DNA of 64,000 bases from Povalibacter uvarum. Its GTDB lineage: Bacteria > Pseudomonadota > Gammaproteobacteria > Steroidobacterales > Steroidobacteraceae. Of the stretch, positions 60,234-64,000 are shown one piece after another. Each line of letters starts with the position of its first letter. The stretch's first letter is position 1. The stretch lies in contig NZ_JACHHZ010000003.1 in the NCBI RefSeq assembly GCF_014202975.1, forward strand, positions 558,001-622,000. The letters run 5' to 3'. Made by a program: the position numbers and the translations under genes. The notes below the pieces were generated by a model. The model made no database searches and was not told where the DNA came from. It saw only the letters and a list, made by a program, of their open reading frames with translations.

Positions 60234-62828
60234 CTACTCGATTCGCCCCAGGTGCCGATCGAACCAATCGGTCACATCCGCGGCAACCCTGTTCGGCGGC
60301 ATGGTGAAATGGCCCGTATCGTAAGTGATCTGCGTTTTCCGGTCGGCCGGCGTTCCCAGCAGTTCGAAGGTTCGCTTCTGTGATTGCTCGTAGGGATAGA
60401 TGTGATCGTAGCGGCCGCTCAGCATCAGCACTGGGATGGTGATGCGGGGAGCGTAGTTGACGAGATCGATCATCGGGTGCACCGGATCGTTGAGCCAGAT
60501 GCCGCCCGAAGCGAGCACAGCCGCGGCAATGCGCTTCTCGATGGCGAGATTGATTGCTCCCGCGAACGCCGCGCCCCGACTGATTCCCAGGTAACCGATG
60601 CGATCCGCCCGCATGTCCGGTCGCGTTTCCAGATAGTCGATCGTGGCGCTCAGGTCGTGTTGCCACAGCAGCGGCCGGCTACGCTCGACGTCAAAGGACG
60701 TGGCCATATCGGTCGGCGCGGGCGAATAGCGTTCGTAGCCGCCGGCCCAGATCGGCATGATCAGCGCCCGGCCGCTGTTCACGACGAACCCTGCGATCTG
60801 CAGTTGTTCGAGCACCGCTCGGTTCGGGCGTCGCATATAGCAGCAATCGCCGACTCCTGAATACACGATGGGCTGCAACGGTTTGTCGTGAGCCTTTGGT
60901 CGCACGACATAGATCGTCGTCCGATCCTGTTCGGTGAACGTGAGAACGACTTCTTCGGCGACCCACAGCGCCGACTCTTCCACCGGGCTCACGGTGACCT
61001 GGCTCGGCGCAGTGTGCGGAGTCGTGAACTGAAAGCGCATCGCTGCAAATGCGTCGTCGGAAACGGGAGCGCGATTCGCGAATGGGGTATCGCGGACGAG
61101 CCGGATCGGTTCGAGCAGCGTGGTTTCGACCTGCGATTCGCCGAGCGGAAGCATGAGGCGCATGCCGTGATCCGGGAGTCGACTCATTGGATCGGCGGTG
61201 TAAGCGAGCGCCGAGTTCGATGCGTACTCCGGCCAGCCGCTGCCCAGCGCAACCGCTTCGTCACCCGCTGAATTCCAGACCCACTCGCGCACGTTGCCGG
61301 CCATGTGATACGTACCCCACGGTCCCGCTCCTTGTTCCGTGAGCGCCGACACCGGGCCATAGGTGAGGAACCTGCTGTGCGAAGCGATCACAGCCGAGGT
61401 CGGGAACATCGCGTCGTAGGGCGTGAATGCGGCTCGCAGCCAATGATGAATCGTTGGCAACATCTGTTTTCGATAACGCGCGTACGCAACCGCTTCGTAC
61501 CAGCTGATTCCGCCGACCGGCATGTCCTCCTCGCCACGCGGATATGTGCTGAGCTGCCAGCCGGCGGGACCCGCGCGTCCAGTGGCGTCGATGAAGTATC
61601 GGCGCGCGTCAGGCCACGACAGCGTGCGGCCTTCTCGAGTGAACTTCAGGTCCTGCCAGTACTCGGCTTGTTCGTAGCCGCCCGCGTCCACGAATTCCTT
61701 GAACTGCCGGTTGGTGACTTCGCTGCGTCCGATCGCAAAGGCCGGAATGTCGTGCTGCTCGCCACCGAGTATTCCCCTGGACCAGCCGGCGAGATATACC
61801 GGCACATTGGTGTGCGGGACGAACACCATGTCCCGCGGCAGCGCATCCTCATCGATGAGCGAGAGCGGAATGCTCGGCTGATTGAAGGGGAATCGCTTCG
61901 GCGTATCCGACTCGCCAACCTCCACCGAGGGTCCCGGTATCGCGACGACGAAATAGCCCGTGCGAAATCCGTCCTTCGTGACCTTGAGGCGGACGGCTCC
62001 GCGCGGCGCCTCGATCCATGTCTCGATGGGTGTCGTGCCCGCCAGAATCCACTCGCCGTTCTCGTCGTCGTAAGACTTGAAGTAAACAGTGGCGCCCGGC
62101 TGCGAGACCAACGGTCGCATCGGAACGATGATCTTTCGCCACAGTGCCTCGAAGGCCGGGTCCTCGCGGACGCGATCCATTCTGCTTGCTCGCGAAAGCA
62201 CGAACGCCGCGCTGTACTGATCCTTGGCTACTAGCGCGGCGATCTCTGACATCGCCTTTACATCCTTTGCGCGCTGTTGGGAGCTCAGATGCGTAAAGAC
62301 GAAATAACTCGCACCCACCGCCAACACTGCGGCTGCGGCAAGCCCGATGGTCCACTTCGACCGCCGACGCTGGGGCTCCCCGGCGGTGTCCGTTGAAGTG
62401 GGCGAGGGCGGTTCCGGACTTTCCTGGATCTCCGGCGCCGTTTGTCCCGGTTCTGCGACCCCGACCTGTGCCTTGGGAGTGCCTGCCAGTTCCGTTAGCC
62501 GATAGCCGACCCGCGCGATCGTTTCGATCGAGAAGCCGCCGTGCGCTTCCGCCAGGCGCCGGATTCTGGCGATGCAACGGTTGATTGCATCCTCACCGAC
62601 GACGCGACCGGCCCAGCACTCATCGATGAGTTGATCGCGTGAGACGACCTGGCCCCGGCGGCGCGCCAGGACGACGAGCACCTGCATCACCCTCGGTTCG
62701 AGGACTTCCCGGCTGTCGCCGGCTACGACCTCCCGGGACGAAGGCCGGATCAGCAAGTCGCCGAGCGTGAAGTCGGGTTCACCTGCCAGATCCACCGAAA
62801 ACGGCCCCTGATCGGCGCTCATCGGCAT
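60234..62828 (-). CDS. wHTH-TM-PEGA-FGE-alpha/beta hydrolase fusion protein
   Basis: An 864-residue multi-domain protein. Residues about 18-112 are an OmpR/CadC-type winged helix (SREVLEPRVMQVLVVLARRR, SRDQLIDECWAGRVVGEDAI, ETIARVGYRL). A Pro-rich linker leads to one membrane helix (about 159-181). A PEGA-like domain spans about 245-295 and an FGE-sulfatase/SUMF1-type domain about 330-565 (IGRSEVTNRQFKEFV, GISWYEAVAYARY, MAGNVREWVW). The C-terminal alpha/beta hydrolase (about 590-864) has Ser750 in YLGISRGAA, Asp808 in SGRYDHIYP and His840 in DTGHFTMP. The FGE catalytic Cys pair is not visible. The start may be 62828 or 62822. Function unknown. Confidence 0.88.
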   Translation of the reverse strand: MPMSADQGPFSVDLAGEPDFTLGDLLIRPSSREVVAGDSREVLEPRVMQVLVVLARRRGQVVSRDQLIDECWAGRVVGEDAINRCIARIRRLAEAHGGFSIETIARVGYRLTELAGTPKAQVGVAEPGQTAPEIQESPEPPSPTSTDTAGEPQRRRSKWTIGLAAAAVLAVGASYFVFTHLSSQQRAKDVKAMSEIAALVAKDQYSAAFVLSRASRMDRVREDPAFEALWRKIIVPMRPLVSQPGATVYFKSYDDENGEWILAGTTPIETWIEAPRGAVRLKVTKDGFRTGYFVVAIPGPSVEVGESDTPKRFPFNQPSIPLSLIDEDALPRDMVFVPHTNVPVYLAGWSRGILGGEQHDIPAFAIGRSEVTNRQFKEFVDAGGYEQAEYWQDLKFTREGRTLSWPDARRYFIDATGRAGPAGWQLSTYPRGEEDMPVGGISWYEAVAYARYRKQMLPTIHHWLRAAFTPYDAMFPTSAVIASHSRFLTYGPVSALTEQGAGPWGTYHMAGNVREWVWNSAGDEAVALGSGWPEYASNSALAYTADPMSRLPDHGMRLMLPLGESQVETTLLEPIRLVRDTPFANRAPVSDDAFAAMRFQFTTPHTAPSQVTVSPVEESALWVAEEVVLTFTEQDRTTIYVVRPKAHDKPLQPIVYSGVGDCCYMRRPNRAVLEQLQIAGFVVNSGRALIMPIWAGGYERYSPAPTDMATSFDVERSRPLLWQHDLSATIDYLETRPDMRADRIGYLGISRGAAFAGAINLAIEKRIAAAVLASGGIWLNDPVHPMIDLVNYAPRITIPVLMLSGRYDHIYPYEQSQKRTFELLGTPADRKTQITYDTGHFTMPPNRVAADVTDWFDRHLGRIE

Positions 62829-63038
62829 TCCATCGGCGATTCATCAGGCACTGATCCTGTCCGGCGCGGCGCTGAAGCGGTGTCATGGCCCCGCGATCGC
62901 ACCCCGGTGTCGGTCGCACAGATCCGCCTCGGGCAGGGTGGCAGTGGCATCGCTGAAGGCTCCGGCCATGTTTTTCGGAGCATAACGCGAACCCTGCTGC
63001 ACCTGCGATTGGCGCCACGTTGGTCCGGTGAGTACGTC

Positions 63039-64000
63039 ATGTTGCGAGCCTTTCCATCCCTGATCATCGCGGCGATCGCGCTGCCCGGCATCTTGTTGCA
63101 TTCGGCACTCGCGGAGGCCGCGGACCCGCTGCCGAGGCATCTTCACGAGACGGGGCTGTTTGCGGATGCGGGGACGACGATCGACGCGAGGAACCTCCCA
63201 TTCGCACCGCAGTATCCGCTCTGGTCGGACGGCGCACGCAAGCGTCGATGGATCCATCTGCCGCCGGGCAGTGCGATCGACGCATCGCGGCCCGATGCAT
63301 GGGAGTTCCCGGTCGGGACCCGGCTGTGGAAAGAGTTCTCGCTCGGGCGCCCCATCGAAACCCGCTTCATCGAGCGGCTGGCCGACGGCACCTGGCGATT
63401 CGCCGCGTATGTTTGGAACGAAGCGGGCACGGAAGCAACGCTCGCTCCGCGCGAAGGCATGTCGCTCAGCGTGCCGATGGCGCCGCAGGGTCGCTACTCG
63501 ATACCCGCAAGCGACGATTGTCGCGCGTGTCACGAAGGCGCGGCTGTTCCCGTGCTGGGCTTCAGTGCGTTGCAGTTGTCGTCAGACCGTGACCCGCTCG
63601 CACCGCACACCGAAGCACACACGGGGATCAGTGTCGCCGATTTCGTCAGGCGCGGTCTGATTCGGAATGCGCCCGCTGCACTGATCGACGATCCACCCCG
63701 CATCGCAGCCACTTCTCCAGTGGAGCGCGCTGCGCTCGGCTACCTGCATGGCAACTGCGCGCACTGTCACAACGACAGCGGCGCACCCGCACCGGTCGAT
63801 CTGGTGCTAGCGCAGAGCGCAGGCGATCCGGCGAGCACGCAGCGCGTACTGCACTCGATGATCGGCGGGGCTGTGCGCTTTCGTGGTCACGGGCTGGGAA
63901 ACGATGCCACGTTGATCGCTGTGGGCAACCCACAGTCGAGCGTGCTCATCGCGCGCATGCGTTCGCGCAATCCGAACACACAGATGCCGCCGATAGGAAC
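63039..64000 (+). CDS. diheme cytochrome c-like exported protein, SO_2930-type (partial)
   Basis: An open frame from the ATG at 63039 to the window end (320 codons, no stop). The signal peptide is [20 protein letters not shown]. The body has [40 protein letters not shown] and [14 protein letters not shown], matching the SO_2930-like heme protein family, and two heme c motifs: CRACH in [11 protein letters not shown] and CAHCH in [11 protein letters not shown]. It should be a periplasmic electron-transfer protein. Divergent from the fusion protein gene. The 3' end lies beyond the window. Confidence 0.88.

Follow-up and report, generated by a model that had tools for sequence, protein, structure and literature searches.

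A CadC-like membrane protein of Povalibacter uvarum carries a putative hydrolase receptor cassette shared with TIR and kinase proteins

We describe here a gene of Povalibacter uvarum, located in a 64,000-nucleotide stretch of contig NZ_JACHHZ010000003.1 (positions 558,001 to 622,000; hereafter the window), whose 864-residue product joins an OmpR/CadC-type winged helix-turn-helix (wHTH), one membrane helix, a PEGA-like stretch, a domain with the fold of the formylglycine-generating enzyme (FGE) and a C-terminal alpha/beta hydrolase. As sequence comparison indicates, the protein beyond its membrane helix forms a transferable cassette. The same cassette also occurs in proteins with TIR domains, with Ser/Thr kinases or with membrane helices only, a sharing that was missed in the preliminary description of this DNA, which was made from the letters of the sequence alone. 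The reading towards which we lean takes the protein for a transmembrane transcription regulator of the one-component type with a periplasmic receptor cassette, in which an encounter between the hydrolase and its ligand would switch nearby genes. We infer topology, catalysis, coupling, ligand class and target alike, and they are discussed below in that spirit.

The gene is a single open reading frame with an ATG start, as first described, and the coordinates of its parts are collected in Table 1. In a Pfam scan with an E-value limit of 1, Trans_reg_C (PF00486) matches residues 43-111 above its cut-off (E 1.4e-12), and among solved structures the winged helix is matched best by CadC (5ju7), over residues 15-111 (E 2.1e-10); against the CadC equivalog of NCBIfam (NF007540) the protein scores 45.1 bits, the cut-off being 400. 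A hydropathy scan gives one peak, at residues 159-183, which is preceded by RRRSK, and the charge pattern around this helix suggests that the C-terminal part is probably periplasmic. At the other end of the protein, Pfam recognises the hydrolase family DLH at residues 689-823 (E 4.5e-6, 26.8 bits with a cut-off of 21) and also BAAT_C (22.6 bits, cut-off 20.9), and the solved relatives found by profile comparison include esterases, MHETase, cutinases and dienelactone hydrolases. The winged helix, the single membrane helix and a readable Ser750-Asp808-His840 triad, all of which the preliminary description had put forward, are thus borne out, and the domain search that it proposed places both the winged-helix and the hydrolase profiles above cut-off.

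Relatives of the cassette were sought with residues 187-864 (678 residues) as query, at E 1e-20 in samples of the family, the order and the class. The cassette is present in 13 of 217 family genomes, in 25 of the 396 genomes of an order sample that has genomes in common with the family set, and in a single genome out of 369 in the class sample, the window's own; 13 of 107 genomes in the family of genome G788 also have it (E 1e-40), adding zero new loci. A scan of genome_contigs with six short peptide patterns, a method that overlooks diverged copies, returned 14 loci, namely L009, L022 (a 54-residue match, set aside) and 12 with a whole or partial cassette (L010-L021), the last originating from Gammaproteobacteria including SAR86, Gemmatimonadota, Acidobacteriota, Ignavibacteriales and one unplaced bacterium. 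Among 72,556 plasmid records, 13 match the query, none covering 80% of it, and all of these matches lie within its residues 141-381 (the FGE part). The comparisons that follow use 43 rows, the window protein included; copies of the window gene (L001, L023), two loci apparently on the contig of L009 (L024, L036) and the fragments L037 and L020:6278-6787 were omitted, and L022 was never part of the set. Most rows are about 30-40% identical to the window protein.

What precedes the cassette differs in kind from row to row. A winged helix is found in 3 of the 43 rows, a TIR domain in 10, a Ser/Thr kinase in 10, a two-helix membrane module in 17, the same module with a TolB_N-like part in 2, and nothing recognised in 1. 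Pfam supports every row of the first three classes (Trans_reg_C in 3/3, TIR_2 in 10/10 and Pkinase in 10/10), and the kinase motifs HRDxKxxN and DFG are present in all ten kinase rows, with VA(I/L)K in nine of them. Of the 17 two-helix rows, thirteen were scanned with Pfam and gave no N-terminal family; L020, L040, L047 and L053 received the two-helix label by eye, and the presence of the helix pair was judged by eye in all 17. The TolB_N-like rows are L029 and L034, the Pfam match being weak and confined to L029 (E 0.001, below cut-off) and L034 being assigned by likeness. On a tree of 39 cassettes, which additionally omits the partial L020, L021, L035 and L052, the N-terminal type has to change 11 times, a number matched or undercut by 0 of 200 shuffles, and a single clade for the three wHTH rows is rejected in the approximately unbiased (AU) test (p-AU 0.0049). 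Furthermore, L029 and L034 have cassettes close to those of L030 and L031, with a membrane module and TolB_N-like part in the one pair versus a protein kinase in the other, a difference that probably reflects a recent exchange.

Two observations on individual classes are recorded here. The TIR-cassette proteins are those of L010, L025-L028, L032, L033, L035, L048 and L050; an S..C..E pattern, taken for the TIR catalytic motif, is seen in three of the ten (L010, L048, L050), and this pattern, crude as it is, leads us to draw no conclusion. One Acidobacteria contig carries two kinase-cassette genes head to head, L012:137-3097 (-) and L012:3290-6280 (+), perhaps encoding paired receptors.

Within the cassette, the catalytic residues of the hydrolase are retained throughout. 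Ser750 is Ser in 39 of 39 rows, Asp808 is Asp in 39 of 39 and His840 is His in 38 of 38, counting the rows with a residue at the position concerned (the others of the 43 are partial), and in the GxSxG motif the first Gly is kept in 38 of 39 (Ala in L049) and the last in all 39. This invariance favours a working, catalytically competent hydrolase. The hydrolase part also contains the pair Cys662-Cys663 (60840-60845), which recurs in L009 and is present in 0 of the 12 other rows of alignment A1; in a regulator encoded beside a cytochrome gene, it could possibly form a disulphide or a redox-sensitive spot.

The middle domain, on the other hand, has the fold of an enzyme but lacks its catalytic cysteines. 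Pfam assigns FGE-sulfatase (PF03781) to residues 357-520 (E 7.7e-21), and profile comparison matches solved FGE, EgtB and OvsA chains, in agreement with the FGE-like domain of the preliminary description. However, the only cysteines of the protein are at positions 71, 85, 662 and 663, none falling within residues 330-560, and no column of the FGE-like part has Cys in more than 17 of the 43 rows; the domain is therefore not a formylglycine-generating enzyme, that activity being ruled out by the absence of the catalytic cysteine pair. Ergothioneine synthase activity is likewise ruled out, by the lack of cysteines together with the lack of a DinB match (Pfam, E limit 1); the score against the curated EgtB family is 58 bits, with a cut-off of 360. 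As for the PEGA-like stretch, Pfam finds no PEGA match in the window protein even at E 1, and its identity (residues 236-290) is read through relatives, in which the aligned stretch matches PEGA above the Pfam cut-off (L015, L016) or below it (L010, L011, L013). Taken together, the cassette would be a receptor module in which a non-catalytic FGE/lectin fold is combined with a catalytically competent hydrolase and joined to interchangeable outputs.

The domain combination is odd and, for this reason and nothing more, a frameshift or misassembly that fused two adjacent genes has to be considered. We give this virtually no credence, and a frameshift fusion is ruled out because L009 shares the architecture, the third-codon-position guanine-plus-cytosine (GC) content is even along the frame (0.67-0.80 over the entire gene), and L049 is another wHTH fusion. 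The search for the same architecture in other genomes, which had been suggested at the outset, is what yielded these two. The protein of L009 has the identical domain order at 62-80% identity by segment, its gene being broken by a run of N (L009:4443-4542); its source is labelled as an uncultured Steroidobacter metagenome-assembled genome, and apparently the same contig is found as genome G179, marked as being of the same genus as the window. L049, a further wHTH-cassette fusion, comes from a different family within the same order. In the window's own genome, only the window gene itself matches the protein past residue 190; the eight other matches are confined to residues 8-190, which take in the winged helix and reach no further than the membrane helix. 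Of these eight, L002 and L003 were scanned, and both combine Trans_reg_C with TPR.

As to what such a regulator might control, the divergently transcribed di-haem cytochrome gene had been named as an obvious first target. This gene is of the SO2930 family (TIGR03806, E 3.2e-53, 181 bits, below the cut-off of 313), and the second cytochrome c gene that follows it matches Pfam Cytochrom_C (E 7.4e-6). Beside L009 the cytochrome pair is likewise divergent, the second cytochrome being 73% identical over 180 residues, and because the pairing recurs in this second genome, synteny makes the di-haem cytochrome a plausible target of the wHTH-cassette regulator. Of the 217 family genomes, 49 contain a match to the first cytochrome (E 1e-20) and seven a close one (at least 57% identity); in 7/7 genomes with a close copy the second cytochrome adjoins the first. 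In two of these seven (the window's genome and G179) the gene upstream of the pair is the cassette regulator; in two others (G163, G165) it encodes a LuxR/GerE-type regulator that carries an AAA domain, and in the remaining three (G172, G084, G159) no regulator was recognised there by eye. This synteny is compatible with a cytochrome pair under regulation whose controller differs between genomes.

We therefore outline how the protein could work, each step being conditional. The N-terminal winged helix would bind DNA in the cytoplasm; a single helix would span the inner membrane and leave the remaining three quarters of the protein, its C-terminal part, in the periplasm. There, the PEGA-like and the catalytically dead FGE/C-type-lectin-fold domains are expected to hold or position a ligand or a cell-wall component, and the alpha/beta hydrolase, with its full Ser-Asp-His machinery, would bind an ester-like or lactone-like compound, with turnover or acylation being probable. 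The ligand event at the hydrolase would alter the linker and hence the pairing of winged helices, and this altered pairing would switch nearby genes, with the divergent di-haem cytochrome pair as first candidate. In the relatives, the same change would drive the TIR domain or the Ser/Thr kinase. Since one sensor occurs on different signalling parts, it may be that a chemical is detected through enzyme-like handling. Carried further, and here we are distinctly tentative, sensing could itself be chemical, with a periplasmic hydrolase that must be acylated by, or cleave, the signal molecule in order to switch transcription; the cassette would then serve as a general-purpose extracytoplasmic hydrolase receptor for DNA-binding, TIR and kinase outputs. 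Plants have hydrolase receptors, and on this tentative reading the cassette would be their bacterial counterpart, placed outside the membrane. The earlier suggestion of a membrane-bound regulator whose periplasmic part is an enzyme-like sensor or an active hydrolase is thus upheld in its winged helix, its one membrane helix and an invariant triad that favours a working hydrolase, with the periplasmic location standing as probable.

Several observations weigh against a receptor of this kind acting on nearby genes. First of all, 17 of the 43 rows have the membrane module alone before the cassette, with no recognised output; the cassette can therefore exist without one. Second, a conserved triad alone does not establish that catalysis takes part in signalling. 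Third, L049 lies on a long branch, so that an independent origin of its wHTH fusion is less sure than the p-AU value says. Fourth, when all open frames of at least 120 residues from 29 regions were compared with one another, no neighbour of the cassette genes proved to be widely shared, and synteny therefore hints at no common signal. Outside the cassette genes, 34 clusters are common to at least two of the 29 regions, and the widest spans four (L055, L057, L061, L066), its L055 member starting by eye as a protein kinase and its L057 member as a membrane-helix protein; three clusters are common to the three SAR86 regions, and among the 25 of the 34 clusters listed the remainder are pairs, mostly of L069 and L073. 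Finally, the proposal of the cytochrome gene as first target, with its recurrence at L009 in its favour, is weakened on several sides: in the five other genomes with the cytochrome pair (G163, G165, G172, G084, G159) the cassette has no match anywhere at E 1e-20, alignment found no motif common to the divergent promoter regions of the window and L009, repeat and promoter scans of the intergenic region 62829-63038 gave nothing usable, neither an operator nor a sigma-70-like site, and no cytochrome lies in the 12 kb fetched around the third wHTH fusion (L049/L056).

The rows without recognised output also mean that the enzyme may matter for itself, and they bring in a different explanation, in which the part that counts is the hydrolase, an esterase-like enzyme anchored to the membrane on its periplasmic side by any N-terminal tether, with hydrolysis rather than sensing under selection; a winged helix, TIR domain or kinase would then report the state of the enzyme or adjust its production. 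The 17 rows with membrane helices only (four labelled by eye), L011, in which no N-terminal domain is seen beyond a membrane helix, and a triad that is invariant regardless of the N-terminus are all in keeping with this. However, swapping among wHTH, TIR and kinase is the behaviour of a sensor and is unneeded by plain anchored enzymes, and the FGE-like domain is at least as conserved as the hydrolase, with 31 columns conserved at 95% or more, the most of any region, versus 15; we thus consider an enzyme without a sensory role rather unlikely. It is also conceivable that the FGE-like and hydrolase folds are both binding scaffolds of a pure ligand-binding receptor in which no bond is cut. Enzyme folds are frequently reused as receptors, and the FGE-like domain is indeed without catalytic cysteines, but Ser, Asp and His are kept in all rows that reach them, at about 30-40% identity to the window protein in most rows, when a scaffold would be expected to lose some, and this makes a non-catalytic receptor quite improbable. 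The regulator with a hydrolase-based receptor cassette is the reading that we carry into the comparison with known systems.

Like the CadC/ToxR regulators, the window protein has an N-terminal OmpR-type winged helix, one membrane helix and a C-terminal part that is probably a periplasmic sensor; unlike in these, the C-terminal part consists of an FGE-like domain and a hydrolase with an intact triad. In a survey of transmembrane regulators, the main text, in the portion available, nowhere has the words 'hydrolase' or 'FGE' (PMC10269533). By analogy, the nearest precedent for the logic of a hydrolase sensor is RsbQ-RsbP, in which, according to the sections available, the catalytic triad of RsbQ is needed for signalling and the sensing module is coupled to a phosphatase, a histidine kinase or a diguanylate cyclase (PMC3183031). 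Both systems, compared by general fold, thus appear to have a catalytically intact alpha/beta hydrolase in a sensory module with interchangeable outputs. RsbQ, on the other hand, is in the same sections a separate protein that acts on a PAS domain with a coiled coil, whereas the window hydrolase is fused with FGE-like and PEGA-like parts, probably beyond the membrane, and Pfam gives no PAS match in the window protein (E limit 1).

The FGE fold without catalytic cysteines is also known from bacterial proteins related to OCTIN, which, in the excerpts available, have N-terminal kinase, caspase, DinB, NATCH (as printed) or PEGA extensions (PMC5915273). Kinase and PEGA extensions are common ground; wHTH, TIR and a C-terminal hydrolase are, on the other hand, not among the combinations named in those excerpts, and the sole use of 'hydrolase' in the paper concerns vacuolar enzymes. 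FGE/FGS domains (C-type-lectin fold) furthermore occur in conflict systems and diversity-generating retroelements (PMC7159879, PMC8195603, PMC10907252), and in the parts of these papers available they resemble the window protein in joining the FGE fold to signalling or effector domains; those are NTPase-based or diversified by retroelements, whereas here one membrane protein unites the fold with a hydrolase. No description of a wHTH, FGE-like and hydrolase fusion was found among the openly licensed papers that the searches brought up for inspection, judged mostly by titles and the beginnings of abstracts. Database entries named as kinase and FGE proteins very likely exist. The winged-helix form is new among CadC/ToxR regulators, and the cassette extends the idea exemplified by RsbQ to a hydrolase that is fused and probably extracytoplasmic.

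Table 1. Features of the gene and its divergent neighbour in the window
Feature	Position	Strand	Basis
Whole gene: wHTH, transmembrane helix, linker, PEGA-like, FGE-like, alpha/beta hydrolase	60234..62828	-	Open reading frame list, 864 residues, ATG start
OmpR/CadC-type winged helix, residues 15-112, predicted cytoplasmic	62493..62786	-	Pfam Trans_reg_C; CadC 5ju7
Single transmembrane helix, residues 159-183	62280..62354	-	Hydropathy scan; RRRSK N-terminal to helix
Post-membrane linker, residues 187-235, predicted helical; start of shared cassette	62124..62270	-	Alignment A1, conservation
PEGA-like stretch, residues 236-290	61959..62123	-	Alignment with PEGA matches of relatives; own Pfam match none
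FGE/C-type-lectin-fold domain, residues 330-560, cysteine-free	61149..61841	-	Pfam; profile matches to FGE, EgtB and OvsA chains; cysteine list
Alpha/beta hydrolase domain, residues 631-864	60237..60938	-	Pfam DLH; profile matches to esterase, MHETase and cutinase chains
Ser750, putative nucleophile in GISRG	60579..60581	-	Row conservation
Asp808	60405..60407	-	Row conservation
His840	60309..60311	-	Row conservation
Divergent intergenic region, candidate operator	62829..63038	.	Position only
Divergent SO2930-family di-haem cytochrome c gene, running off the window	63039..64000	+	Continues in L055:4037-5664, then second cytochrome c gene

Receptors that retain a working enzyme active site are few, and the coupling of catalysis to signalling in them is debated. 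The cassette described here can be traced by sequence, and since its partners include three signalling domains that are well understood, a ligand found with one fusion would be readable with the others. Transcription fusions such as the window protein would be an easy reporter for this purpose, and the TIR and kinase fusions would offer a route to the extracytoplasmic signals to which such bacterial proteins respond.

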